In this document: piece after piece, positions 30,831 through 60,352 of the stretch | Numbering within the stretch: the first letter of the stretch is position 1 | Layout of the letters: each line of letters starts with the position of its first letter | Assembly: GCF_902784195.1 (NCBI RefSeq) | Contig: NZ_CACZTX010000009.1 | Coordinates: 1 to 64,000, forward strand | DNA: 64,000 nucleotides | Reading direction: 5' to 3' | DNA from: an uncultured Methanobrevibacter sp. | GTDB taxonomy: Archaea > Methanobacteriota > Methanobacteria > Methanobacteriales > Methanobacteriaceae | Translations under genes and position numbers: made by a program | Notes under the pieces: model-generated | What the model was told of the DNA's origin: nothing | Databases searched by the model: none | What the model saw: only the letters and a program-made list of their open reading frames with translations

Positions 30831-33758
30831 CTAGAATGTTAAATGAACAAGCTGCTCTTGAAGGGTAAATGAATTTGTATTCCAATTCTGAATATTACCT
30901 AACTTGTTTCTGCTGCTTGTTGCATCAGCAGAATACCATACACCATCAACATAGATTTGCGCCCATACGTGACCAGTGTTCAAACCACTTGAGAACTTAC
31001 AGTTCTTACCATGGGAAAACCTTGCAGGTATGTCAGCTGCTCTACAAAGAGCAACAATCAAGTTTGCATGATCACAACAGTTACCTTTTTTATTGCTTAA
31101 GGTACCAGTTGCCTTATATTTGGTGTTTGCATAATATTCATAATTGATATTGTCTCTAACCCAATTAAATATAGCTTCAGCTTTAGCCCATACAGTAGAT
31201 TTGCCTGCAGTTAAATCATTAGCCAATGAACGGATGGCTGAATTAAGCGCATCATTTCCAGAAGAGCTTAGATATTGAGCTAGTTGAGCAGAAGTAAGAG
31301 CCTGTACCTCATTTAATCCTTTTTTATACTGGGCGGTATTTCCTCTTTTATTGACATCTGACCCGGGTGTACCATCAACATCCTTTGCATTGAAAGTAAT
31401 GTAATTTGGCAATCTATAATTATTTGAATAGAAATCTAAAGCTTTAGAAAGTCCAAATATGTATAAGTTAGGATAGATTTTCCCTATATTTGTGTCAATA
31501 AAATCTGGAAGTTTTTCATTGGATACAGCCCCATTAATTAATGCATTTGCTAAATCTATATATTTTGTTTTATTCAAATCAGCATTAATTGAAGAGCTTC
31601 CATTATTAGTGTAATTAGAACTAATATTGATAACTTCTACATCAAGCTTTTTACCATTATTAATATTAATAACAGATTTAGACATCAAATAAGCAAAACT
31701 GGTTATGTTAACATTAATACCATTTACAGAAACTGTAGATGGGAGATATCCCTTAGATTCAACAAATGATCTCAAACTTTTAGATGCATCAACAATCTGA
31801 TTAAATGTGAAAACCTTATCCGATTTAACATTTAAGTTTACAGAACCTGATGAAGCATCATAGACACTATCTCCTGCAAATGAATAAGTTAATTTAGCTG
31901 TTTTAGGGGAATTCTCTACAATGAAGAGACTTGCAGCACCATTAGCATCTGTAGTGTCAGTATAAGTCTTACTATCAAAATTAAATGTAATAAGTTTATT
32001 AGCTAAAATCTTTGAATTAGAATCCCTTAAAGTAACCACATAAGAACTGTTATTCATTATAGAACTTCCAGAATTCTTTATATTACTTGAAAGCTTTACT
32101 GCAATATTTTTAGTTCCAGAAGAGGACCTATTATAATAGGAAGTTCCAGCATATTTATAAGACAATTTATAAGTTTTACCTGCTGCTAGACTAATAGTTA
32201 AACTAGCAACTCCTTTAGAACTGGTAGTTTTAGTATAAGTCTTACCATCAAGAGTAAAGGTTATGGTTTTACCTGATAATACCTTACCATTACCATCTTT
32301 TAAAGTGACTTTATAAGCACTTCCTTTAATTATAGTTGTTGCAGAAGGTCCAGACAAACTAGTTGCCATCTTAGTTTTGAGTCTTAATGAACCAGAACTA
32401 GAACCATAATAACTACTTCCACCATATTTATAAGAAAGCTTATATGTATAACCTATTGGAGAATTTATCTTTAAGCTGACTTGTCCTTTGGAATTAGTAG
32501 TTTTCTTATAAGTTTTTCCTCTGTATGTAATTGATACTGTCTTTCCAGTTAAAACCTTGCCTTTATAATCCTTTAAAGTAATGTAATAATATTTTCCTTT
32601 ACCAACTGAACTTCCTGAATTGGATAATTTAGTTGGAGTTTTAATGAATACATTTACTTTTTTAGAAGAAGCCCCATAATAGGAACTGCCTGCATACTTA
32701 TAAGTGATTTCATAAGTTTTTCCAGGAGTTGGGCTTAAAGTTAAGGTTACAACCCCTTTTGAACTTGTGGTTTTAGTATAAGTTTTGCCATTATAAAGTA
32801 CTTTAACGGTCTTTTTAGATAGGGCCTTATTGTTAGAATCTTTTAAAGTAACAGTATATTTACTTCCTTTCACTATACGTGCATCAGATCCAACAATTTT
32901 TGTAGGCATTTTAACCTTAAGGCTTACTGAACCGGAACTAGCAGCATAATAATCATCACCAGCAAACTTATAAGTTAATTTATAAGTCTTGGCTACTGTA
33001 CCAGTAATTGTTAAACTAACTTTTCCTTTTGAATCGGTAGTTTTAGTATAAGTCTTACCATTAAAGCTAAGAGTTACTTTTTTAGAGGATAACACTTTAC
33101 CATTTTTATCTTTTAAAACAACATAGTAAGCTTTTCCTTTAATTGCAGAACTACTTGCATTGGTAATGCTTGTTGGAGTCTTGCTAACAGTTACTTGAGT
33201 AGAAATAGATGAATTTTCATATAACTCATCACCTTCAAAAAGAACAGCAATAGTATAGACACCAGCTTTTCCACTAATTTTTAAACTAGCAACTCCATTA
33301 GAATCAGTAGTTCTAGTGTAATTATTTCCATTAAATGTGAAAATTAAGTTTTTTCCAGATACCGGATTTCCATCCTTATCTTTTAAAGTGACGGAATAAT
33401 CTTCTCCATTAACTACTTTAGAGCTAGAACTTATAATAGTTGTAGAATTCTTAGTAGTTTCCTCTGAACTATCACCAACAGAATCAGAATTAGGGATTAT
33501 ATCAGAAGACTCTGCACTTGAATCATCAGACGCTCCATTATCATTTCCAATTAATTCTGAATTATCATTTGTTGAATCAGACATTTCAGAAGAAACAATC
33601 TCTTGATTATCTAAATCCTCACTAACTGATCCATCACTTTCTGCAAGATAATTCTGATTATCATTTATGTCACTCACATCACTTGCTGATACTGAAGCAA
33701 TTGAAACAATGAACAATGCTAAAATCAACAAAAGTAATGTTTTGTTTTTATTCGAAAT
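30831..33758 (-). CDS. Adhesin-like surface protein: Ig-like repeats, pseudomurein-binding repeats and transglutaminase-like domain
   Basis: 975 aa exported protein. After a signal peptide (KNKTLLLLILALF, ending at SVSA) comes an acidic Ser/Asn/Asp-rich linker to about 105, six Ig-like repeats of about 90 residues, a region resembling pseudomurein-binding repeats (KSLRSFVESKGYLPSTVSVN and the later YSNNYRLPNYITFN), and a C-terminal transglutaminase-like domain with Cys near 894 (GNCCDH), His near 930 (GHVW) and Asp near 945 (ADATS). That triad also occurs in pseudomurein endoisopeptidases, so wall remodelling is possible as well as adhesion. In-frame upstream of the first TTG no ATG exists; an ATT at 33758, 4-5 nt after GAGGTGA, gives a full signal peptide. 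Confidence 0.88.
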   Translation of the reverse strand: MSNKNKTLLLLILALFIVSIASVSASDVSDINDNQNYLAESDGSVSEDLDNQEIVSSEMSDSTNDNSELIGNDNGASDDSSAESSDIIPNSDSVGDSSEETTKNSTTIISSSSKVVNGEDYSVTLKDKDGNPVSGKNLIFTFNGNNYTRTTDSNGVASLKISGKAGVYTIAVLFEGDELYENSSISTQVTVSKTPTSITNASSSAIKGKAYYVVLKDKNGKVLSSKKVTLSFNGKTYTKTTDSKGKVSLTITGTVAKTYKLTYKFAGDDYYAASSGSVSLKVKMPTKIVGSDARIVKGSKYTVTLKDSNNKALSKKTVKVLYNGKTYTKTTSSKGVVTLTLSPTPGKTYEITYKYAGSSYYGASSKKVNVFIKTPTKLSNSGSSVGKGKYYYITLKDYKGKVLTGKTVSITYRGKTYKKTTNSKGQVSLKINSPIGYTYKLSYKYGGSSYYGSSSGSLRLKTKMATSLSGPSATTIIKGSAYKVTLKDGNGKVLSGKTITFTLDGKTYTKTTSSKGVASLTISLAAGKTYKLSYKYAGTSYYNRSSSGTKNIAVKLSSNIKNSGSSIMNNSSYVVTLRDSNSKILANKLITFNFDSKTYTDTTDANGAASLFIVENSPKTAKLTYSFAGDSVYDASSGSVNLNVKSDKVFTFNQIVDASKSLRSFVESKGYLPSTVSVNGINVNITSFAYLMSKSVININNGKKLDVEVINISSNYTNNGSSSINADLNKTKYIDLANALINGAVSNEKLPDFIDTNIGKIYPNLYIFGLSKALDFYSNNYRLPNYITFNAKDVDGTPGSDVNKRGNTAQYKKGLNEVQALTSAQLAQYLSSSGNDALNSAIRSLANDLTAGKSTVWAKAEAIFNWVRDNINYEYYANTKYKATGTLSNKKGNCCDHANLIVALCRAADIPARFSHGKNCKFSSGLNTGHVWAQIYVDGVWYSADATSSRNKLGNIQNWNTNSFTLQEQLVHLTF
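31815..33440 (-). repeat. Six tandem Ig-like repeat units in the adhesin gene
   Basis: Six in-frame units of about 270 nt, each encoding a pattern like VTLKDKNGKVLSGK, FNGKTYTKTTDSKG and KYAGSSYYG. Tandem coding repeats such as these can expand or contract by recombination, changing how far the adhesin reaches from the wall. Confidence 0.85.
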
Positions 33759-36033: not shown

Positions 36034-36645
36034 TTAAAGATGGTTTATCTCATTGAAATACAAAATATCATCACATATTACATCAAGCAAGTCTTTATCA
36101 TGACTGACAGCTAGAATACCAATATTATTAGCTTTACAATGCTTAATAAGTGCTTCCCATATCTGCACTTGAGTTACAGCATCAAGCATAGTGCTTATCT
36201 CATCTGCAATGATAAATTTTGTTTGGGGATTTAAAGCCCTTAATATACTGAAACGTTGCAATTCCCCACCAGAAAGTTCACTTGGCCAACGAGTCAACCA
36301 ATTATCTTTTAGACCAAAAGTGTCTTTCAAATTCTGTGGAGGAATCCATGATTCTCTTAATACCTTTTCCATCTTCCATTTAGGATTCATAGTCTTTTCT
36401 GGATGTTGGAAAATTAATTGAATAGGATCATAACCATTTCTATTAACAGAATTACCATCAATAGTTACCTCACCAGCATAATTGCTAATATAACCGGAAA
36501 TAATCTTACATAATGTACTCTTACCACTACCACTATCTCCAATTAATCCGATTATCTGATTACTGTTAAGAGATAACGAAACATCTTTTAATATTGGTTT
36601 CTTCTTATGATATGAAAAAGAAATATTTTCTGCCTTAAGCTCCAT
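36034..36645 (-). CDS. nikE: Opp/Nik-type ABC transporter, second ATPase (NikE-like)
   Basis: 203 aa cytoplasmic ATPase. Walker A GDSGSGKST near 35, signature LSGGELQRFS, Walker B FIIADEISTMLD and H-loop AVSHDKD are intact, so it should hydrolyse ATP. It lacks the C-terminal Cys extension seen in NikD. I start at ATG 36645 (MELKAENISF) after GAGGGGG, six nt upstream; this overlaps the nikD stop by 11 bp. It is the last gene of the importer operon. The nikel-type name is by operon context; oligopeptide or metallophore substrates are possible. Confidence 0.85.
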   Translation of the reverse strand: MELKAENISFSYHKKKPILKDVSLSLNSNQIIGLIGDSGSGKSTLCKIISGYISNYAGEVTIDGNSVNRNGYDPIQLIFQHPEKTMNPKWKMEKVLRESWIPPQNLKDTFGLKDNWLTRWPSELSGGELQRFSILRALNPQTKFIIADEISTMLDAVTQVQIWEALIKHCKANNIGILAVSHDKDLLDVICDDILYFNEINHL

Positions 36646-37642
36646 CATTAGCCCCCTCATCATTAAGTTCTCCTTCAACTACTTCCTCCGAAACAGGCTC
36701 TTCAGGAATAACTTTATCAAAATTAAAGCACCTGATCATTGCACCATCATGTTCAATAAGTTCTGGTTTTGATTGATTACATTTGTCTGAACGTATTGGA
36801 CAATTTTCATAATAAGGGCAACCGGGGACCTCCTCCAATGGCTGAACTCCTTCAGTTAACTTGAAACCATTCTTTGGCAATGCATCGACTAAAGCTTTGG
36901 TATAGGGGTGCAATAAGTTTTCAGAATTCAAGAAGTTTTCCACTTTATTGATTTCAATCACATACCCTGAATAGAATATTGCAATCTTATCTGCTGTCTT
37001 TAAAGCCACATCTATTTCGTGAGTAATCAGTAACACACCTTTACCTTGATCTTTTAATTTTCTAATGTCATGAATTGTCTCTTCAACACTTTTTGCATCA
37101 AGACCTGGAGTAGGTTCATCAGCAATCAATAAATCAGGATCATTCAATAAAGCTGTAGATAATAATACTTTTCTCGCCATTCCACCAGACAACTCAAAAG
37201 GATACAAATCATCTACACTTTCATCCAACCCATATTTACTGAATACTTCCCTTTGTCTTATTTGTTTCTCTTTACGCTCATTATCATCTTTACATTCACC
37301 AACAGCCTGTTGGGAAACTTTCATTAAAGGATCCAAGAAATTTACAGATTGAGGTATTAAGCAGATTTCCTTACCTCTTATTTTTTCTTTCATCTCTTGG
37401 TTTAAAACTTGCCCATTATATTTAACTTCTCCTGTCACATGAGCATTGTAAGGCAAAATACCTAAAATTGTGTGAGCTAAAAGACTTTTGCCTGAACCAC
37501 TGGAACCTAATACAGCTACGATTTCACTTTCACCAATATCAAGTGACAAATCAGAAATTACCTTTAAATCGTGCCTAACTAATCCTTGGACATATTGTGT
37601 AAAAGATATTGATAAATTATTTACTTCTAATAATTTCTCCAT
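36635..37642 (-). CDS. nikD: Opp/Nik-type ABC transporter, first ATPase (NikD-like)
   Basis: 335 aa. Walker A GSSGSGKSL near 45, signature LSGGMARKVL, Walker B LLIADEPTPGLD and H-loop LITHEID are intact. The C-terminus has four Cys in GCPYYENCPIRSDKC and RCFNF, the oligopeptide/Nik ATPase extension that can hold an Fe-S cluster in some homologues. The acidic tail is extra. AGGTGG before ATG 37642 decides the start over an upstream in-frame codon. 13 bp separate it from nikC. Confidence 0.88.
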   Translation of the reverse strand: MEKLLEVNNLSISFTQYVQGLVRHDLKVISDLSLDIGESEIVAVLGSSGSGKSLLAHTILGILPYNAHVTGEVKYNGQVLNQEMKEKIRGKEICLIPQSVNFLDPLMKVSQQAVGECKDDNERKEKQIRQREVFSKYGLDESVDDLYPFELSGGMARKVLLSTALLNDPDLLIADEPTPGLDAKSVEETIHDIRKLKDQGKGVLLITHEIDVALKTADKIAIFYSGYVIEINKVENFLNSENLLHPYTKALVDALPKNGFKLTEGVQPLEEVPGCPYYENCPIRSDKCNQSKPELIEHDGAMIRCFNFDKVIPEEPVSEEVVEGELNDEGANDGA

Positions 37643-37655
37643 AATACCACCTAAT

Positions 37656-38507
37656 CTAGTTATTTGCCTCTCCAGGGTCAAGCAAGCGTTTTAAATTATC
37701 TCCAATAATATCAAACAACAATACTACAATCAATAATGCAAGACCTGGGAAGAATGCTAACCACCAAGCGCCCATTGCAAGATAGGACATTGATTCGGAT
37801 AGGATAATACCAATAGCTGGCTCATGTGGTGATAACCCAAATCCTAAGAATGTTATACTTGCTTCATGCATAATTGCATGAGGGAATACAAGCAAGGTTC
37901 CTACAAATATTTGAGATATTACTAAAGGTAAAATATGCTCCTTTGCAATCCATAACTTGCTTCTACCTAATCTATTGGATAAAGCAACATATTCAGATGT
38001 ATTAATTTGCAATACTTCCGCCCTAAGTACTCTAGTTAAGTTAACCCAGTGCGAAAAAGCTACAGCCATAATTACACCGAATGCACCTTTACCTAATGCA
38101 ATTGATATCATCATAAGCAATAATATATGGGGAATGGATGCAAACAAGTCAATTGCCCAAGAAACAGCCTCATCCAACCATTTATTTGCACTTGCAAGAA
38201 ATGCTAAAATAGTGGCTATTATGCTGGAAATTACTGATGCACCGATACCAATGACAATACTTAAGCTTAAACCTTTTATTGTACGGGTAAACATGTCCCT
38301 TCCCATCCAATCAGTACCAAATGGATGAACCAATGAAGGAGCTTGCATTTTTATGGAAAAGTCTGTTGGTAAATTGGCATTAGTCATCCATCCGCAAATG
38401 AAAATAACCAATAAAATCAGCCCAGTAAGACCAATGGTCAAAAGTGTTTTTTGCCTTAAGTTCAATGAACTGAATAATCCTTTATTGTACCATGGCATCT
38501 CACTCAT
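37656..38507 (-). CDS. nikC: Opp/Nik-type ABC transporter permease (NikC-like)
   Basis: 283 aa with an N-terminal helix and five or six membrane helices of the BPD_transp_1 fold. FGTDWMGRDMFTRTIKG and the EAA-like loop YVALSNRLGRSKLWIAKEHILP identify a DppC/NikC/CntC type permease. Its start region overlaps the nikB stop by 8 bp (ATG at 38507, or 38510), after AGAGGTGAGG. It pairs with NikB to form the membrane channel. Confidence 0.88.
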   Translation of the reverse strand: MSEMPWYNKGLFSSLNLRQKTLLTIGLTGLILLVIFICGWMTNANLPTDFSIKMQAPSLVHPFGTDWMGRDMFTRTIKGLSLSIVIGIGASVISSIIATILAFLASANKWLDEAVSWAIDLFASIPHILLLMMISIALGKGAFGVIMAVAFSHWVNLTRVLRAEVLQINTSEYVALSNRLGRSKLWIAKEHILPLVISQIFVGTLLVFPHAIMHEASITFLGFGLSPHEPAIGIILSESMSYLAMGAWWLAFFPGLALLIVVLLFDIIGDNLKRLLDPGEANN

Positions 38508-39495
38508 CATCCTCACCTCTTAATCTTGGATCAACATATTTATAGATTATATCTGCAATAAGGTTCCCAGTAAATACAAAGATTGCACTGATAATCACAA
38601 TACCAAGCAATAATGGAACATCAGACCTTAAACCAGCAGCGACAGTTGCCTGTCCGATTCCTGGATATGCGAATACTTGTTCTACAAGAATGGTTCCACC
38701 GAACAACTCATTAAATGACAAGAATTGGATGGAAATAGCTGGGAGCAAAATATTTCTTATTCCATGGTTTTTGATTATTCCCCAAAAGCTTTCACCTCTT
38801 GCTTGTGCAAACAAGAAATAATCACTTTTTTTTACTTGAATAAGCTTGTCTCTTGTGAACATTGTTAAGGAAGCTATTCCTACAATACTTAAAGTCACTG
38901 CAGGCAATATCAACCGGTATAACCATTGCCAGAAGGTTACAGTATCAGACAATTGACCAATAGGTACAGAAAGACCTATTGGGAACCAACCCAAGTAAAC
39001 TGAAAATAACATTAACAATACCAACCCTATCCAAAAGGTAGGTGAAGATTGTAATATATAACTGTAGGTTTTAATTGCCTTATCAATCCAAGTACCTTCT
39101 TTAGCACCGGCAAGCACACCTAATCCAAAACCAAAGATTCCGGATATTACCCAAGAAGTTGCCATAAGAGTTAATGAAGCGGTAAATTTCTGTACAATAA
39201 CTTCTGTTACAGGGACTCGATAAATCAATGAAAATCCCATGCTTCCAGTAGCTAAAGTTGAAAGCCAACCAACTACTCTTTCACCTAAAGACAAATTAGT
39301 TCCCCAATATTCTCCCATAATGGCTAATTGCTCTTGACTAACAATCCGTTGTCCTAAATAAGCTCTAACAGGATCAATAGGGGACATTTGTATCATAATA
39401 AAACTGATAGCAGCTATAACGATCAATAAAATTATTAATCTCACTACTTTCAATCCTAAAAATTTAGCTAAATTTTTACTATTAATTTTAATCAA
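38500..39495 (-). CDS. nikB: Opp/Nik-type ABC transporter permease (NikB-like)
   Basis: 331 aa with six predicted membrane helices. QMSPIDPVRAYLGQRIVSQEQ near 35-55 and the EAA loop FLFAQARGESFWGIIKNHG fit DppB/NikB. A TTG start is used in the longest frame; the ribosome-binding site there is poor (ATGGG), and a GTG 17 codons later (after AGGA) is an alternative. 310 bp with repeats separate it from nikA, unusual within an ABC operon. Confidence 0.85.
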   Translation of the reverse strand: MIKINSKNLAKFLGLKVVRLIILLIVIAAISFIMIQMSPIDPVRAYLGQRIVSQEQLAIMGEYWGTNLSLGERVVGWLSTLATGSMGFSLIYRVPVTEVIVQKFTASLTLMATSWVISGIFGFGLGVLAGAKEGTWIDKAIKTYSYILQSSPTFWIGLVLLMLFSVYLGWFPIGLSVPIGQLSDTVTFWQWLYRLILPAVTLSIVGIASLTMFTRDKLIQVKKSDYFLFAQARGESFWGIIKNHGIRNILLPAISIQFLSFNELFGGTILVEQVFAYPGIGQATVAAGLRSDVPLLLGIVIISAIFVFTGNLIADIIYKYVDPRLRGEDDE

Positions 39496-39805: not shown

Positions 39806-41428
39806 TTATGCAGTTTCATTTGTTTCAAGACGTTTCCAGTCGTAGATGTTACCCCAAATATCTCCACCGTGTGGGTAGATAAGGTGAGTGCTGTTGGAAA
39901 TGTCTAAATCATCACTTACAAAGTAAGTGTAGTCCATAGTACCAATCCATAAGAATGAATTGTGGGAAGTAGCTTGTTTTGCAGCTTGCTTCCAAGTACT
40001 GTAGGAAGCATCGGTAGGTTGAGCCATTGCTGTATCAATTAATGCATCTACAGCAGAATCTTTAAGATTACCTGGGTTATCATAACCTACACAAGCTACA
40101 TCTGAACCGTATTGGTGCTCAATTGAGTATGGATCCGCTGAACCGAATCCCCATACAACTCCTTGACTGTATTTATCTGGGTCAATTTCATCCCAACTTG
40201 CACCTTTAGGAGTGATTTCAATACCTAATTCTTTAGCTTGTTCAGCAAGAGTTACTGCAATTGCCTGTCTTTCAACTGCGGATGCTTTGTAGTAAACTGT
40301 GAATTCTGCTTTTTGACCATCTTTTTCTCTGATACCGTCACCGTCAGTGTCTTTCCATCCAGCTTCTTCAAGAATAGCTTTAGCTTGATCTACTTGACCG
40401 TCTTTGTATCCAGCATCAAATGCCCATGGTAATTGGTCAGCCACACCAGTGTAGGATACATTACCGTATCCGTTTAATGCACCATCTATTAACTCTTCTC
40501 TGTCAATACCAATAGCTAAAGCTTGTCTGACAGCAGGGTCTCCAGTTACATTGTTACCGATTGCAACACCATCTTCACTGGTTTTACCTTCATCCATTGT
40601 GGTTGGTAAGGAAACACCACGTACATCAATGGAATCGAAGTATTCCATGTGGTAACCATCGATTTTTTCATCTGCATAGGATACTGCTACTTCAGCAATG
40701 TCCACATCTCCATTTTTAACTGCTGCGAATGCTGCATCAGGGTCAAGGAAGAGGTTAGTAATTTTGTTGAAGTAAGGTTCTTCACCATAGTAATCAGGGT
40801 TTTTCTCTAAGATGAATTGTTGACCTTTGTCCCATTGAGCTAATTTATAAGGTCCAGAACCGATTGGGTTTTGACCATATGTTGCATTGTCATAAGTAGC
40901 TTCTGGAACGATACCCACATCAGTCAATTTATTGATGAATGTGGAATCCGGTTGATCAAGAGTAAAGACTACTTTATCTCCATCTGCTTTAGCTTCTTCC
41001 ATATGGGTTAAGTCTGCACCTTCTCCAAACTCTTTAGCAGTGTTATAGGAGAAAGCCACATCTTTAGCGGTTAATTTGGAACCATCTGTGAATTTAACAT
41101 CATCACGAATAGTTACAGTATATGTTTTCAAATCATCAGATATTTCATAATCTGTTGCCAAGTCATTTACAAATTCGTTGTCAGCATTTCTTTTCAGAAT
41201 TGTACTTTGAATTAATGGGTCTGTTCCGGAATCATGGTATCCCCAACCGTGCATTGGGTCAAACCCGAACTCCGGTTCTTCACCGTGTGCTGCTACACAA
41301 GTGATTAACTCATCAGGAGCATGTTCAGATCCTCCTGTTAAAAAGTCAAACCAGCCTGCAGAAGCAGAACCTACGCTGATAATTGCTATTAATACAATTA
41401 CAGAACCTACTAAAATCTTTCTATCCAT
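39806..41428 (-). CDS. nikA: ABC transporter substrate-binding protein (NikA/CntA/OppA-like)
   Basis: 540 aa SBP_bac_5 protein. A Sec signal peptide (VIVLIAIISVGSASA, ending near 24) has no lipobox Cys, so it is released or held by its N-terminus instead of lipid. DYEISDDLKTYTVTIRDDV, FTDGSKLTAKDVAFSYNTA, GSGPYKLAQWDKG and the C-terminal YFVSDDLDISNS are family blocks. AGGAAA lies before the ATG. Upstream is operator cluster A. In bacteria close families bind nickel-histidine, nickel-metallophore or staphylopine-metal complexes; the nearby nicotianamine-synthase-like gene favours a metallophore here (inference). Confidence 0.88.
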   Translation of the reverse strand: MDRKILVGSVIVLIAIISVGSASAGWFDFLTGGSEHAPDELITCVAAHGEEPEFGFDPMHGWGYHDSGTDPLIQSTILKRNADNEFVNDLATDYEISDDLKTYTVTIRDDVKFTDGSKLTAKDVAFSYNTAKEFGEGADLTHMEEAKADGDKVVFTLDQPDSTFINKLTDVGIVPEATYDNATYGQNPIGSGPYKLAQWDKGQQFILEKNPDYYGEEPYFNKITNLFLDPDAAFAAVKNGDVDIAEVAVSYADEKIDGYHMEYFDSIDVRGVSLPTTMDEGKTSEDGVAIGNNVTGDPAVRQALAIGIDREELIDGALNGYGNVSYTGVADQLPWAFDAGYKDGQVDQAKAILEEAGWKDTDGDGIREKDGQKAEFTVYYKASAVERQAIAVTLAEQAKELGIEITPKGASWDEIDPDKYSQGVVWGFGSADPYSIEHQYGSDVACVGYDNPGNLKDSAVDALIDTAMAQPTDASYSTWKQAAKQATSHNSFLWIGTMDYTYFVSDDLDISNSTHLIYPHGGDIWGNIYDWKRLETNETA

Positions 41429-41469
41429 ATAATTTCCTCGTTAAATTACTTAAAAAATAACATCCTCCA

Positions 41470-41661
41470 GTATTACTATTTTAAACAAAATTCTAAAAAA
41501 GTAATACTATTCATGAAAAAGATATTACAATTATAATTATGATTTTAAAGTATATAAATGTAATACATTATTCTAAAAAAGTATTACTTTATTGTAAAAA
41601 ATTAGTGAAAAAGTAATAAAAAAGTATTAATAAAAATGCTTAAAAGTAAAAAAAGTAATAC
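41470..41661 (-). promoter_or_regulatory. Operator cluster A and promoter of the nik operon
   Basis: Five GTAWTAC sites at 41470, 41501, 41560, 41581 and 41655 (start positions), three within the full 9-bp palindrome AGTAWTACT. GTAATAC-N14-GTATTAC at 41560-41587 is a paired site (centre to centre 21 bp). A minus-strand TTTATATA (41551-41558) is the TATA box, with one base between it and the operator at 41560. Transcription is predicted near 41525, so two sites lie in the leader. The arrangement predicts repression of nikABCDE. Confidence 0.75.
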
Positions 41662-41791
41662 AAAACCAGGTTAAATATAAAAATAATTGAAAAAAAGGGA
41701 AAAATAAGATAAAAAAGCATAAAATAATAATTAATTAATAAAAAAAGAAATTAACATAAAAAAATAATGTAATAGTGAAAAATATGAAAAA

Positions 41792-42184
41792 TTATTCTTT
41801 TAAGTATTCACAGACCTTTTCACCTGCAAATAAGCATACTTCAACACATGGAGATTTGTCATCACCATCTTTTGAAATGTATCCGCATGTTACAGATTCA
41901 TACTTGTCCTTGAATTCATTGAATAACTTTTTGGAAGCGGAAATGATTTGCTTTTCATCTGCACCTAAAAGACCTAAAGCCATTACAGCTCCAGTTACAG
42001 CACCACAGGTCCCTTCAGAGAATGTTCCACCAATTCCTCCAGAGAATCCTTTTGCAAGAAGAGCCAATTCTTCAGTAGGCATACCTGCAACATCACAAAT
42101 TCCCATAAGAGTTGCTTGTGAACAACTGTAATCCTTTCTGTATTCTTCAATTTTCTTTACTACTTCATTTGAATCCAATTCCAT
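41792..42184 (-). CDS. C_GCAxxG_C_C family protein
   Basis: 130 aa. Cys in YSCSQATLMG, GTFSEGTCGAVTGAVMALG, VTCGYISK and SPCVEVCLF match the C_GCAxxG_C_C family, thought to bind metal or act in redox reactions, often beside transport or reductase genes. GAGGGATT precedes the ATG. It lies 268 bp downstream of the P-type ATPase start side... that is, after the ATPase stop, on the same strand, and upstream of the nik operator cluster, so it sits inside the metal island. Function is unproven. Confidence 0.82.
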   Translation of the reverse strand: MELDSNEVVKKIEEYRKDYSCSQATLMGICDVAGMPTEELALLAKGFSGGIGGTFSEGTCGAVTGAVMALGLLGADEKQIISASKKLFNEFKDKYESVTCGYISKDGDDKSPCVEVCLFAGEKVCEYLKE

Positions 42185-42452: not shown

Positions 42453-44501
42453 CTAGTTGTGATAGGTTTCACAACTTTGTCTAACCAATGCATGCTTGTG
42501 AGCATGCATATGCTTAATTCCACTTTCTGTTTTGATTTCATCAATTATCTTAATGCCGTCATGAGAATGTGAGTGCTCACCATCGTTGTGGAAATGATAA
42601 TGTGAATGCTCTACATTTTCAGTATCGATTTTCTTAATTGAATCATCAAATTTCCTGTCATACAGCAATGCTGCATTAAGCACTACAAGACATGACCCTG
42701 CATTGTGTACAATAGCTCCAGTAACAGGATTCAACAATCCTAAAACGGAACATACAATAGCTACTGCATTGATTGTCATGGAAATGATAATGTTTGCCTT
42801 GATTGTAAACAAGGTTGAATTTGAAAGCTTTTTAAGATATGGAATCTTGCCAATGTCATCACCTAAGAGTGCAATGTCTGCTGCCTCAATTGCAACATCA
42901 CTTCCAACGGATCCCATTGCTACACTTACATCAGCTGTCTTAAGTGCAGGTGCATCATTTACACCATCACCAATCATACAGACTTTCTTGCCTTCACTTT
43001 TGAGCTTTTCAATCCAATCAAGCTTTTCTTGAGGAAGAAGATTACCATATACCTTTCCAATTCCAACTTGAGAGGCAAAATAATTAGCGGTTTCAGTATT
43101 ATCCCCTGTAAGCAATATGGTTTCAGTTCCTAAATCATGCAAGTTCTCAATCATGTTTTTGGAATCTTCACGTATCACATCAGATAATCCGATCAAACCG
43201 ACTACGCCATCATTCAAAGCAACGATAATTGAAGCCTTACCTTCATGTTTTAACTGGTTTAGTTCAGCATCAACATTAAAATCAATATTATTTTCTGATA
43301 GAAATTTGGAGTTTCCTGCATATACTTGACCATAAGAGTTTTTACAACTTACCCCTTTTCCAGGGACCATCTTAAAGTCTTGTGGTTCTTCAATATCAAT
43401 TTCCGCTTCTTTTGCTTTGTCTACAATAGCTTTAGCCAATGGATGCTCACTTAATTTCTCACAAGAAGCAACTATATTTAAGACATCCATTTCATCTAAA
43501 TCGTCTTTCAAGGAAATAATATCTGAAACTGCTAAATTACCATAAGTTAAAGTACCTGTTTTATCAAATACTAAGGTATTCAATCCACCTAATGTCTCTA
43601 AAGCTTCACCAGATTTAATGAGAACCCCATATTTTGTTGCCTGACCAATAGCTGCCATAATTGCAGTTGGTGTAGCAAGTATCAATGCACATGGACAGAA
43701 CACTACGAGGACTGTCACCCCTCTTTCAATGTTTCCTGTAATGAGCCAAGCTGCAATTGCGATTATCAATGCAACAGGAACAAGCCATGTAGCCCATTTA
43801 TCTGCAATCCTTTGAGTTGGAGCTTGCTTTTCATCAGCTGCCTTTACAAGGTCAATCAATTTTTGAAGTGAAGAGTTTTCACCTAAACTGGTTGCTTTAA
43901 TGTCAATTGCACCATACAAATTCATGGTACCACAGAATACCTCATCCCCTATATCCTTATCAATCGGCAATGATTCACCAGTCATGATAGATTGATCAAG
44001 AGAAGAAGTACCGTTTATAATTTCACCGTCAACAGGTACACTTTCACCAGGAAGAATTCTTAAAGTATCTCCGATTTTAATCTCATCAACGGAAATCATT
44101 TCTTCCTTGCCATCAACAATTCTCCTACCTGTTTGTGGAGTTAAATTAATAAGATTTCTTAAACCTTTTTTAGCTCTTTCAACTGTCCAGTCTTCTAAAA
44201 GAGCACCTAAAGCCATAATCCATGCCACTTCACCTGCTGCAAATATCTCACCAATCAAGAGTGATGCTACCATAGCTATTGCAATAAGAAGTGCAGATGA
44301 AATCCACTTTTCACGGATTAATCTGGTTAAAGCCAATAATAACATTGGAATACCACTTATTATTACCGCACCCCATGCAGGGTTTAGGTAAATTGGAGTG
44401 TCAATTCCAAGTATCATGAAAATAACAGCGATTACGAGAAATATGGCTGAAATAATGGTCATTTTCAAACCAAATAAGAAATCAGTTATTTCATCAATCA
44501 A
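42453..44501 (-). CDS. Heavy-metal P1B-type ATPase with His-rich C-terminus
   Basis: 682 aa. It has an A-domain (MTGESLPIDK), the transmembrane metal motif FCPCALILATPTA, phosphorylation site DKTGTLTYG, SEHPLAKAIV, GDGVNDAPALKTADV, and a late helix with HNAGSCLVVLNAALL. No N-terminal heavy-metal-associated domain is present, but the C-terminal 60 residues hold about 13 His (HSHYHFHNDGEHSHSHDG). Such pumps expel Zn, Ni, Co or similar ions. GTG 44510 overlaps an AAGGTG Shine-Dalgarno site, so I start at TTG 44501. Operator cluster B precedes it, tying it to the nik regulon. The exact metal is not determined. Confidence 0.9.
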   Translation of the reverse strand: MIDEITDFLFGLKMTIISAIFLVIAVIFMILGIDTPIYLNPAWGAVIISGIPMLLLALTRLIREKWISSALLIAIAMVASLLIGEIFAAGEVAWIMALGALLEDWTVERAKKGLRNLINLTPQTGRRIVDGKEEMISVDEIKIGDTLRILPGESVPVDGEIINGTSSLDQSIMTGESLPIDKDIGDEVFCGTMNLYGAIDIKATSLGENSSLQKLIDLVKAADEKQAPTQRIADKWATWLVPVALIIAIAAWLITGNIERGVTVLVVFCPCALILATPTAIMAAIGQATKYGVLIKSGEALETLGGLNTLVFDKTGTLTYGNLAVSDIISLKDDLDEMDVLNIVASCEKLSEHPLAKAIVDKAKEAEIDIEEPQDFKMVPGKGVSCKNSYGQVYAGNSKFLSENNIDFNVDAELNQLKHEGKASIIVALNDGVVGLIGLSDVIREDSKNMIENLHDLGTETILLTGDNTETANYFASQVGIGKVYGNLLPQEKLDWIEKLKSEGKKVCMIGDGVNDAPALKTADVSVAMGSVGSDVAIEAADIALLGDDIGKIPYLKKLSNSTLFTIKANIIISMTINAVAIVCSVLGLLNPVTGAIVHNAGSCLVVLNAALLYDRKFDDSIKKIDTENVEHSHYHFHNDGEHSHSHDGIKIIDEIKTESGIKHMHAHKHALVRQSCETYHN

Positions 44502-44540
44502 TATAGACACCTTCTTTTATACTTATTATTAAAATTTATC

Positions 44541-44736
44541 GTAATATTAAAAAGTATTACTTTTTTTAAGTTTTCATATATTTAGTATTACTTATAATTA
44601 ATATATACAATAGATTATATAAATGTTATTACTTTTTTGTAGTTTTTTGTATGAAAAGTATTACTTTTAGAAAAATTTGTAAAAAAATATAGAAAAAGTA
44701 TTACTTTTTTGCCTATTTTGGTATAAAAAGTATTAC
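44541..44736 (-). promoter_or_regulatory. Operator cluster B and promoter of the P-type ATPase gene
   Basis: AGTATTACT centred near 44557, 44588, 44661, 44701 and 44733 (five full matches), plus the variants GTAATAT at 44541 and GTTATTAC at 44625-44632. A minus-strand TTTATATA (44616-44623) is the TATA box, with one base between it and the 44625 variant, the same geometry as cluster A. Spacings of 31, 32 and 40 bp are near whole helical turns, so several dimers could bind one DNA face. Confidence 0.75.
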
Positions 44737-44879
44737 TCTTAAAAAAATCTAATAAAAAATTAATAAAAATTAATAAAAAAGAGTGTAGAAATTATGAAAA
44801 TTTAAAAAAAAATCATAAAAATAGATATGAATAGAAATAGAAAAAATAAAAAAAGATGTGAAAAATTAAAATTATCTGA

Positions 44880-45701
44880 TTAACTAATCTTCCTAATTAA
44901 TACGGAAGTGTTGTTTGTTTTTCCTCTAGGAAGCAACATGACTTCCTGATGGAATCCTCTTGTATCCTTTTCAGTTACTGGAGAGTAAAGAATGGCTCTC
45001 ATACCAGTATAGGTCCTGTAAAGTACAGGAGTCTTCTCGTCAACAACATCCCAAACATTTGCAAATACCCTGTCCTTAGGTTCAGCAAATGCTGCAATCA
45101 TCAAGATGTCATAATCCAAGTCTGCAATGGTCTTTTCATTACCTGTTATAATCTCAATTCCTTCATCAAGGTCTAAACGTTTTAATACTTTTCTTGACAA
45201 TTCAGCAACATCAGGATCTTGTTCAATACCAATACATTTGCATCCAGTTACCATATTAAACATGATTATTGTTAATGGCAAAGGACCGCTTCCTAAGAAT
45301 ACAAAAGTCTTGTTTTCATTGAATTTAGCCAATTGCATCTCATTTTCAATAAGGCCAATATACCTGTCATAAAAATGGAATGAATCCAAAACAGCTTTAG
45401 GATCATCAGATTCCAATATCTTCATAGCATTTTCACGTTCCAATCTTGCACCGATATAAACATAGAACTTACGAATCAACTGCAATGCCTTATTCATTTT
45501 CTCATCATCAAGAATATGCTTTGCAGAGTCAAAGTCTATTTCTTTATCATGGGCAATGACTTCAATATCATCCAAAATCTTTGTAATCTCCTCAATGTCT
45601 GTGCCATCTAAAGCAGAAAGCCCCTCGTTGTCTAAGTCCCCATAACTTGAAAGCTTATTTGCAATCTCTTCAATTGTTCCCCAATATTTATAGCAACTCA
45701 T
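44880..45701 (-). CDS. Nicotianamine synthase-like (archaeal NAS family) protein
   Basis: 273 aa. It has the SAM-binding motif FLGSGPLPLTIIMF near 138 and the conserved IGARLERENAMKIL and FYDRYIGLIENEMQ segments, which in the archaeal enzyme of Methanothermobacter carry the active-site Glu and Tyr. That enzyme condenses SAM-derived aminocarboxypropyl units with glutamate to thermonicotianamine, a metal chelator. The start is ATG 45701, four nt after GTGAT; the TTG 45713 frame lacks a site. It lies 148 bp downstream of GNAT and upstream of the metal ATPase on the same strand. I infer a metallophore made for the nik importer. Product is untested. Confidence 0.85.
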   Translation of the reverse strand: MSCYKYWGTIEEIANKLSSYGDLDNEGLSALDGTDIEEITKILDDIEVIAHDKEIDFDSAKHILDDEKMNKALQLIRKFYVYIGARLERENAMKILESDDPKAVLDSFHFYDRYIGLIENEMQLAKFNENKTFVFLGSGPLPLTIIMFNMVTGCKCIGIEQDPDVAELSRKVLKRLDLDEGIEIITGNEKTIADLDYDILMIAAFAEPKDRVFANVWDVVDEKTPVLYRTYTGMRAILYSPVTEKDTRGFHQEVMLLPRGKTNNTSVLIRKIS

Positions 45702-45849
45702 TTTATCACACAAAAAGTCTTTAAAAAAAAAATATTTTTATCCCTAAGTTTATTTTTTAATTTTATATAAAAAAATGTAAAATTAAATTTAATATATACT
45801 TTATATTAAAGAATATATAAATTTTAAATTAAAATTAATAAAATAAATT

Positions 45850-46368
45850 TTATTTACTTGATAAATTCTTTACCATATGAACTGTCTGGAGCTCATTATT
45901 TGTATCCCAAGTTACATTGAATCCCACCTTTTTCCAAAAGCTAAATCCAGCTTCAAGATTCTTATGGGTATGCAAATAAATCTCGTTGAAGTTATTTTCA
46001 CAGCAGAATTTTTCAACAGCATTATACAACTGTGTAGCCAATCCACAACGCCTATAATACTTATCTACAAAGAGTCTCCAAATGCTTGCTGTAGATTCCT
46101 TGGAGTATAAGTCCTGAAATTCCATAAAGTTCTTATCATACTGCCTAACCGCTATGGTAGCAATGATTCTTCCATTGCCACTATCCTCAACATAAAACAG
46201 ACTATTTTTCTTGGAATCGATATAATACTTATTCAAGTCTATTATGTCCTTATGCCATGATGGAATGTAACCATAGCCATATTCAGACCTTATTTGGGAA
46301 AACAGGAAATTTCTCACCCTAATCTTTGTATCACAATCATCAGACAATTGATTTATGGTAAAATTCAT
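45850..46368 (-). CDS. GNAT-family N-acetyltransferase
   Basis: 172 aa. The acetyl-CoA fold is seen in IIATIAVRQYD, SIWRLFVDKYYRRCGLATQLYNAVE (the Q/RxxGxG/A-like loop is RRCGLA) and LHTHKNLEAGFSFWKKVGF. GTGATC precedes the ATG. It is the first gene after operator cluster C and is followed by the nicotianamine-synthase-like gene, so it may acetylate the metallophore or a precursor amine. Other GNAT substrates are equally possible by sequence alone. Confidence 0.82.
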   Translation of the reverse strand: MNFTINQLSDDCDTKIRVRNFLFSQIRSEYGYGYIPSWHKDIIDLNKYYIDSKKNSLFYVEDSGNGRIIATIAVRQYDKNFMEFQDLYSKESTASIWRLFVDKYYRRCGLATQLYNAVEKFCCENNFNEIYLHTHKNLEAGFSFWKKVGFNVTWDTNNELQTVHMVKNLSSK

Positions 46369-46443
46369 TTGATCACTTTAATCATTTTTAAGAATAATTA
46401 ATATAACTCATAAATAAATTAAAAAAAAATAAAAAATCAAAAA

Positions 46444-46675
46444 GTAATACTTATTATGAAAAAAATATTATATTAATACTTTATATTTAATAATTATGAT
46501 TTAATATATAAAAATATTTCTAAAAAAAGTAATACCAAATAGCTTATTTTAGGTAAATAAGTAATAATTATTACTAAAATCCATTTTACTTATATATTAA
46601 GTAATAATTTTCAATTTAAAAAAGTATTACTCTTTAGTATTACAAAAGAAGTAAAAATAGATAGAATAGTAATAC
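46444..46675 (-). promoter_or_regulatory. Operator cluster C and promoter of the GNAT/nicotianamine-synthase-like unit
   Basis: GTAWTAC sites at 46444, 46529, 46624, 46637 and 46669 (start positions), three inside AGTAWTACT, plus a perfect 16-bp palindrome AGTAATAATTATTACT at 46560-46575. A minus-strand TTTATATA lies at 46505-46512. The 13 bp AAATCATAATTAT follow the TATA box, as in cluster A. Sites lie both upstream and downstream of the box. Confidence 0.7.
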
Positions 46676-58832: not shown

Positions 58833-59573
58833 TTAATGATGATGGTCATGACTATGGCCATGCTCATGTTCATGACTGTGGTCGTGTTCATGATCATGGT
58901 CATGATGGTGATGTTCAGCAGCGTGTGCTTTAGCATCTTTAATAGCTTCAATCACTTCATCTAATCCTTTACCTTCTTTTAAGCTGGTAGTGATGACTTT
59001 AACATCCGGATTAAGTTTTTTAGCATCAGCAACCATCTTATCAGTGCTTGCACCGACAGCATCAGCCAAATCAATCTTATTGATGATGATTAAGTCAGAA
59101 TCCTTGAAAATGTAAGGGTGTTTCTCTACTGTATCATCACCTTCAGTAACACTGACAACAACAATTCTCATATGAGAACCTAACTGGAAGTCAACAGGGC
59201 AGATTAAATTACCTACGTTTTCAATGAAAAGGTAATCGATATCATCAAGAGGCAAGTCACCTAAACCATGACTGACCAAATGTGCATCCAAGTGACATTC
59301 AGTACCAGTGTTCAATCCGACAACAGGTGCATTGTGTGATTTGATCCTATCTGCATCAAAATCACTGATGATATCTCCTGCGAGTACACCAACTTTTTCA
59401 TCAAGATTATCAATTAAGTCTTCAATAAGAGCAGTTTTACCAGATCCAATAGCTCCTACGAAGTCTATACAAAATATATCGTGGTCTTCCAATAAATGTA
59501 AATTCTTATGTGCTAATCTGTCATTAGCATCCATAATATTCTTTGCTATCTCTACATCTGCAATCTTATGCAT
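58833..59573 (-). CDS. hypB: Hydrogenase nickel-incorporation GTPase HypB
   Basis: 246 aa SIMIBI GTPase that delivers nickel to [NiFe]-hydrogenases. P-loop GAIGSGKTALIEDL near 40, the D-x-D/metal region with ECHLDAHLVSHGL, and NKIDLADAVG identify it. The last 25 residues are His/Asp/Glu-rich (HHHHDHDHEHDHSHEHEHGH), a nickel store. ATG 59573 (MHKIADVEIA) is used after GGTGA; a TTG frame at 59588 overlaps that site. It lies 133 bp downstream of hypA. Confidence 0.95.
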   Translation of the reverse strand: MHKIADVEIAKNIMDANDRLAHKNLHLLEDHDIFCIDFVGAIGSGKTALIEDLIDNLDEKVGVLAGDIISDFDADRIKSHNAPVVGLNTGTECHLDAHLVSHGLGDLPLDDIDYLFIENVGNLICPVDFQLGSHMRIVVVSVTEGDDTVEKHPYIFKDSDLIIINKIDLADAVGASTDKMVADAKKLNPDVKVITTSLKEGKGLDEVIEAIKDAKAHAAEHHHHDHDHEHDHSHEHEHGHSHDHHH

Positions 59574-59721
59574 ATGATTCACCTTCAAAACATATAATTT
59601 TATAATAAGTTTAATAATTTTAAAAATTTGGACAATATTTTTAATAGTTTATCAAAAAAGTATAAGAATTATCAAAAGACATATTAATTATTTCAATAGA
59701 ATTTTCTATTGTCATTTTTAG

Positions 59722-60105
59722 CTAATTTTCATCATCCTCTTTTTCAATACTAATGCTTCTAACGGTAATGTCTTTACCATTTATAACTTGAACCCTATGA
59801 CTTTCACATTCAGGGCATAAAATCATAGGAGCATAATGATCGCTGTCATCAACATTACCTATACCTTCAAAGCCACAATTATGACATTTAATTTCAACAT
59901 CAATGGTATTAATGATCATCTTGGCATTTTTAGTTAATTCTTCACCTTCAAGCATAACGCCAAGCATAAATTTCAATTGTTCTGGATTTAACATAGCCAA
60001 CTTCCCAATTTCAATTACCATTTCAGTAACTTCAATTGCATCATTAGCTTGTGCTGTTTCTAAAACTGTGTTGAAAATCCCTTGAGCCATAGCAAATTCG
60101 TGCAT
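59722..60105 (-). CDS. hypA: Hydrogenase nickel metallochaperone HypA
   Basis: 127 aa. MHEFAMAQGIFNTVL carries the nickel ligand His2; the Zn site is CHNCGFEG with CPECES near 100. It hands nickel to HypB. GGAGATATGAA precedes the ATG. A GTAATAC site lies about 110 bp upstream. Same strand as hypB. Confidence 0.96.
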   Translation of the reverse strand: MHEFAMAQGIFNTVLETAQANDAIEVTEMVIEIGKLAMLNPEQLKFMLGVMLEGEELTKNAKMIINTIDVEIKCHNCGFEGIGNVDDSDHYAPMILCPECESHRVQVINGKDITVRSISIEKEDDEN

Positions 60106-60212
60106 TTCATATCTCCAAATAAAATTATTTAAATTATAATATAATATTTTAATTAATATAATATAAAACTATTGTTGATTAATCAAACAATTATTATTGA
60201 AATAATTCGTAA

Positions 60213-60219
60213 GTAATAC
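60213..60219 (-). promoter_or_regulatory. Single AGTAATACT site upstream of hypA
   Basis: AGTAATACT at 60212-60220, identical to the cluster A-C motif, with a minus-strand TATA-like box (TTTTATATTATATT, about 60155-60170) about 43 bp downstream of it. Its position in front of a nickel chaperone gene supports a nickel link to the regulon, but it is a single copy. Confidence 0.5.
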
Positions 60220-60352
60220 TTTTTTAAAAAGAAAATAAAAGGACTAAAAAAATTAGTGGAAATCCCAATAAAAAAATAAAAAAATAAAAAAATTAATTTA
60301 AAAAATATTGGAATAAAAATAAAATAATAAAATAATAAGATATAGATTAAAT

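Follow-up and report, generated by a model that had tools for sequence, protein, structure and literature searches.

We report that the nicotianamine synthase (NAS) locus of an uncultured Methanobrevibacter is probably a nickel-controlled chelator module made up of three co-regulated transcription units, and that the metal it handles is very probably nickel. This reading draws on the identities of the genes, their linkage across lineages, an operator that they have in common and the nickel genes that this operator also precedes. Because the NAS gene adjoins, and shares control sites with, nickel importers and nickel enzymes, its product is probably a small molecule that captures or carries nickel, a metal needed for methane production. 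To our knowledge, no physiological role has been assigned to the NAS of Methanothermobacter thermautotrophicus (MtNAS), whose crystal structure has been available for years. Membership of NAS and a neighbouring GNAT acetyltransferase in a nickel regulon gives that enzyme a testable role and names candidate importers; it would also bring the scavenging of a metal into the ecology of the methane producers of rumen and gut. The locus lies in a 64-kb stretch of DNA, here called the window, which is part of a 2.05-Mb genome. Where relatives of its NAS locus carry a name, this is uncultured Methanobrevibacter or M. olleyae; most of them come from ruminants.

Genes and layout of the locus

Profile and structure-database searches recovered, on the minus strand, every gene named in an initial annotation of the window, in the order GNAT, NAS, P1B ATPase, C_GCAxxG protein, substrate-binding protein (SBP) and NikB–E-like genes (Table 1). 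That annotation had described an archaeal same-strand cluster; the genes and their strand stand, and the single operon is replaced by a multi-transcript regulon. Most genes of the cluster are spaced by gaps of 148–369 bp, three of which hold operator arrays of their own, which rules out a single tight operon. As read from the sequence, the cluster is three units (GNAT–NAS, ATPase and importer), each with its own operators, rather than one operon. Among the NAS loci compared, the C_GCAxxG protein adjoins NAS only within the genus of the window. Near the importer end, positions 30831–33731 encode a long surface protein in which, as judged by eye, Ig-like segments recur and the C-terminus resembles a transglutaminase.

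Table 1. Genes and operator sites of the NAS locus, with positions in the window.
Feature	Position	Strand	Evidence or remark
GNAT acetyltransferase, conserved methanogen subfamily	45850-46368	-	Pfam Acetyltransf_1
Archaeal NAS, MtNAS-type	44880-45701	-	Full length; ATG at 45701; Pfam NAS 77 bits; PDB 3fpe 281 bits
P1B-type heavy-metal ATPase, CPC motif, His-rich C-terminus	42453-44510	-	TIGR01525 582 bits
C_GCAxxG_C_C redox protein	41792-42184	-	Pfam PF09719
SBP_bac_5, YntA-like family 5 substrate-binding protein	39806-41428	-	PDB 4ofl (YpYntA) 322 bits, single sequence
NikB-like permease	38500-39495	-	Profile matches
NikC-like permease	37656-38516	-	Profile matches
NikD-like ATPase	36635-37681	-	Profile matches
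NikE-like ATPase	36034-36678	-	Profile matches
Operator array 5' of GNAT–NAS	46442-46675		4 AGTAATAC sites
Operator array, NAS/P1B ATPase gap	44552-44738		5 sites
Operator array 5' of importer	41468-41663		4 sites
Single operator 5' of hypA–hypB	60211-60221		hypA–hypB at 58833-60105, minus strand

The predicted NAS scores above the Pfam family cut-off of 27.1 bits and aligns over residues 5–275 with MtNAS (PDB 3fpe), to which it is about 52% identical over its full length. The equivalents of the MtNAS catalytic residues Glu81 and Tyr107, which are essential in AtNAS1 (PMC10248798), are invariant in an alignment of 12 diverse sequences. Loss of these active-site residues was to have counted against the metallophore system proposed in the initial annotation; the retention of both favours that proposal, and the family and structure matches bear out the identity as a NAS.

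The importer is complete, comprising an SBP_bac_5 protein, two permeases and two ATPases, which is the composition of NikABCDE and YntABCDE. The nearest solved structure to its SBP is Yersinia YntA, with a profile score of 470 bits against 208 for the next family and 145 for CntA; the AF2 model of the SBP is of moderate confidence. Unlike NikABCDE and YntABCDE, the window importer is linked to NAS and a GNAT, and its SBP scores 132 bits with the NikA equivalog model, short of the cut-off of 393. As in the staphylopine and pseudopaline Cnt systems, a NAS-family synthase lies near a family-5 ABC importer, and some bacterial Cnt-type clusters also carry acetyltransferases (PMC7438024). The locus differs from Cnt in that the synthase is not CntL (46.2 bits, equivalog cut-off 350), the SBP is not CntA (101.6 bits, cut-off 800), the operator is a nickel operator and no exporter is linked. 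The likeness to staphylopine drawn in the initial annotation thus holds for the pairing of synthase and family-5 importer, but not for the importer itself, which is closest to YntA rather than CntA. A search for the CntM opine dehydrogenase by PF10100 gave no match in any of 152 genomes, the control genomes being silent as well.

The operator and its nickel targets

A palindrome, AAGTA(A/T)TACTT with the core AGTAATAC, is repeated in the gaps of the locus, often as a pair of sites (AAGTAATACTT), most often 31–32 bp apart. The core occurs 15 times in the window against 2.15 expected, a number reached by none of 100 shuffles, and 13 of the 15 sites lie in three gaps, 5' of GNAT–NAS, the ATPase and the importer, a concentration that is post hoc because the motif was found by reading those gaps. 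In other Methanobacteriaceae loci the operator was observed 5' of 29/32 GNAT, 24/26 SBP and 8/11 P1B genes; for genes of all other kinds the figure is 50/548, and the reversed-motif control is near zero; upstream of C_GCAxxG genes it was found in 0 of 9 cases. NAS genes that are unlinked carry the operator in 20 of 57 cases and lack it in 37. The divergent GNAT/NAS promoter of Methanothermobacter keeps GTAATAC in all eight genomes, and wherever the distance was measured a partner site lies 32 bp from it. A scan for bacterial sigma-70 promoters, a model not suited to archaea, gave no excess over shuffles.

Counted genome-wide as exact 11-mer matches only, the operator occurs 17 times in the window genome (reversed control, 10) and 28 (8), 29 (3) and 23 (13) times in genomes G019, G036 and G013, respectively. 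In the window genome, 12 of these 17 matches stand ahead of nickel or cobalt genes: five belong to the NAS cluster, three to nikMN–nikQ, and one each to hypA–hypB, frhA (the [NiFe] hydrogenase large subunit gene), a CbiX/CfbA chelatase and an ECF ATPase. The hypA–hypB pair, for nickel insertion into [NiFe] hydrogenase, was identified by Pfam matches to HypA (91 bits) and cobW/HypB (86 bits). In G019, sites precede hmd (four), the mcr operon (two) and nikMNQ (six), as well as an importer and a GNAT away from NAS, and in G036 the operator likewise precedes an importer away from NAS.

Under nickel limitation Hmd is increased and Frh, Mvh and Mcr are decreased, and in M. marburgensis CobN1 and NikR1 reach a high level only in this condition (PMC12350162; PMC3087415). 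The window-type operator is carried by hmd, frh and mcr, genes that respond to nickel. Since the operator precedes nickel genes, and since Mcr, Frh and Hmd are known to respond to nickel limitation, the NAS cluster, which shares this operator, is placed in the nickel regulon. NikR is reported in 99 of 102 Methanobacteriales (PMC10617489), in a paper that cites a 2006 prediction of methanogen NikR sites. Beyond the NAS cluster the operator precedes nikMNQO, hypAB, frh, cfbA, hmd and mcr, and the initial annotation is corrected to nickel as the very probable metal.

Most of the genes that the operator marks are specific to nickel (PDGLE-type NikN, hypAB, frh, mcr, hmd and CfbA) and NikR lies inside one NAS cluster, which makes a zinc or cobalt metallophore sharing these importers, in place of a nickel one, quite improbable, even though the NikM and CbiM families overlap, a ZnuABC-type importer precedes NAS in one Methanothermus-like locus and one NikR homologue may be zinc-responsive (PMC3087415).

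Three copies of the nickel operator were also noticed in a gap of about 1 kb between convergent dfp and fibrillarin-like genes in two species (L251 2697–3161, at about 77.2–77.7 kb of contig C3 in its own genome, and L263 3579–4032); this gap may conceal a short gene or a small RNA under nickel control.

NAS neighbourhoods across lineages

The survey of Methanobacteriota covered 152 genomes, with NAS in 104, the GNAT in 112 and the SBP in 106, and about 140 NAS loci were compared in total, including those of other phyla. Among 86 Methanobacteriaceae NAS genes, 21 have importer genes within 8.5 kb (about 1.2 expected) and 29 have the GNAT within 3.5 kb (0.5 expected); these expectations rest on estimated copy numbers, and the genomes are related, so that the counts are not phylogenetically independent and independence is better judged from locus structure. 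The importer precedes NAS, follows it, converges with it or is split to either side of it, in at least six arrangements, and three SBP paralogue clades are each linked to NAS, the other two being 43–55% identical to the window SBP. The neighbourhood check across Methanobacteriales that had been suggested for the locus returned linkage of NAS to both importer and GNAT, in scrambled gene orders, an outcome that favours the proposed system.

Linkage without function, as an old gene order kept in close genomes, is a very improbable account of these data. Most linked cases do come from Methanobrevibacter-like genera, and NAS stands in differing neighbourhoods in many genomes, but the account is largely refuted by the variety of arrangements and of importer clades in an otherwise scrambled gene order, by the operator shared between separate units and by the pairing of NAS with another kind of importer outside this phylum. 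Comparison of sequences across genera and phyla, together with the common operator, supports a functional link between NAS and importer in archaea. A 4Fe–4S protein (L269 4140–4832 and homologues, cluster c48) lies divergent from the third importer clade and has the nickel operator in seven genomes.

The Methanothermobacter NAS loci (20 kb) share only NAS and the GNAT with the 64 kb of the window. MtNAS adjoins a GNAT as the window NAS does, with the operator between the two genes in Methanothermobacter. Downstream of NAS, where the window instead has the NikABCDE-type importer, Methanothermobacter carries secreted CobN/FmdE-like proteins, a DUF2162 'predicted transporter', MotA/ExbB and DUF2149 (L271 14961–16672 and upstream CobN-like genes). 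These CobN–DUF2162–ExbB genes look like an undescribed uptake set for nickel limitation. In a genome taken as that of M. marburgensis, a distance of 112 bp separates the operator from the CobN-like gene located after NAS, and gene counting would place the nickel-induced 'Transporter MTBMA_c10530' within a few genes of the NAS cluster.

NAS is missing from 25 of 91 good genomes of Methanobacteriota, and in G144 and G151, which we take to be M. marburgensis, it is frameshifted by an identical one-base deletion (L039 and L040; NAS at about 10.0–10.5 kb), with the neighbouring GNAT and operators still present. These losses indicate that NAS is not essential. The NAS gene at L112 (5560–7800) is split in two by roughly 1.4 kb of inserted DNA, which holds a 401-aa ORF.

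An ECF Ni/Co importer is present at 14 of the 37 Halobacteriota NAS loci, where the genes often run M-N-Q-O-NAS, with DUF4198 or PDGLE-type nickel components; at the single Methanosarcina-like NAS, the other common type there (16 loci), no importer neighbour was found. In one archaeal cluster the gene order is FecBCD, NAS (frameshifted), CbiM, NikR, CbiQ and CbiO, that is, NAS adjoins nikMN–nikR–nikQO, and in two bacteria, a Peptococcaceae MAG and Desulfosarcina cetonica, NAS lies beside CbiMQO-type genes. On the NAS tree the importer label changes at least 23 times.

Archaeal-type NAS, 53–56% identical to MtNAS, also occurs in bacteria, namely Syntrophaceticus schinkii and further syntrophs or anaerobes (L135, L134 and L138), which suggests inter-domain transfer. 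Tandem divergent NAS pairs were seen in Halobacteriota and Desulfosarcina (L230–L233, L236, L240, L242 and L201), for which a heterodimer or a two-step synthesis is possible.

Proposed roles of the NAS product and the GNAT

A mechanism is proposed in which a nickel-responsive regulator, with NikR as the likely candidate, would act through the AAGTA(A/T)TACTT sites, and NAS would use SAM to make a ligand that resembles nicotianamine, just as MtNAS builds its product from glutamate and two aminobutanoyl units. This ligand would supply nickel for F430/Mcr and the [NiFe] hydrogenases. In the simplest form it would be a nickelophore, the nickel complex being retrieved by the YntA-like importer and elsewhere by other nickel importers, and the GNAT would modify the free or imported ligand, possibly freeing nickel inside the cell. 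We give secretion and re-uptake of the ligand close to an even chance. The broader proposal, that a nickelophore of the nicotianamine type is produced and taken back by methanogens from two archaeal phyla, under nickel control, with a GNAT, without an opine dehydrogenase and through unrelated nickel importers, is tentative and falls somewhat short of even odds. Candidate importers of such a nickelophore are the YntA-type ABC system, the NikMNQO/NikKLMQO ECF systems and perhaps the CobN–DUF2162–ExbB set.

No exporter is significantly linked to NAS, which leaves secretion unsupported and makes an intracellular nickel carrier the main rival. MATE exporters, found by NAS at 12 loci, were rejected: about five would be expected from an estimated 7–10 MATE genes per genome, the hits come mostly from one clade and the operator precedes none of 10 MATE genes. 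Under that rival, the NAS product would buffer or chaperone nickel, stay in the cytosol and carry the metal to F430 synthesis and hydrogenase maturation, and the importers would take up free nickel or Ni–histidine and be merely co-regulated. Plants use nicotianamine internally, YntA is annotated as a nickel-binding protein, and the presence of the operator before the CfbA/CbiX nickel chelatase, hypAB, frh and mcr points to internal nickel use; NAS is, however, repeatedly linked in unrelated lineages to importers rather than to nickel enzymes, and we consider the buffer rather unlikely.

Earlier work has pointed to the NAS of oral Methanobrevibacter as a gene that may serve metal uptake (PMC8485483, PMC10819710), bacterial opine clusters have been mapped by means of CntM in a survey of which archaea were not part (PMC7438024), and the Methanothermobacter nickel transporter has been called unidentified (PMC3087415). 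Our literature searches found no paper that assigns NAS or the GNAT to a nickel regulon or describes a NAS–NikMNQO linkage, an earlier mention being possible, and nothing relevant on nicotianamine with CbiM or Methanosarcina or on a nickelophore. We regard the system as a form of nicotianamine-type metal handling that is new and dedicated to nickel. We know of no earlier archaeal metallophore pathway; the nickelophore, if true, would be the first.

The GNAT subfamily is marked in the alignment by the motifs FGYGYIPxxHxDI, YLHTH and TVHMxK and is linked to NAS from Methanobrevibacter to Methanothermobacter. Its AF2 model (pLDDT 90) retrieved only generic GNATs in a structure search, with no substrate hint and no specific relative. 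The initial annotation had suggested that the product might be acetylated thermonicotianamine; on this reading the GNAT would N-acetylate the NAS product before export. This is consistent with the presence of the GNAT in 62 of the 66 good genomes that have NAS (Fisher 7e-7), with its adjacency to NAS in many genera and with the acetyltransferases of some bacterial opine clusters (PMC7438024), but the GNAT also occurs in 11 NAS-negative genomes among the 91 good ones and, in many genomes, beside importers far from NAS. Its substrate therefore need not be the NAS product, and the suggestion is weakened. Acetylation of an amine donor would, moreover, normally weaken chelation, and the lack of a specific structural relative also counts against N-acetylation before export, which we regard as unlikely. 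The GNAT may instead act on an imported ligand or on something else.
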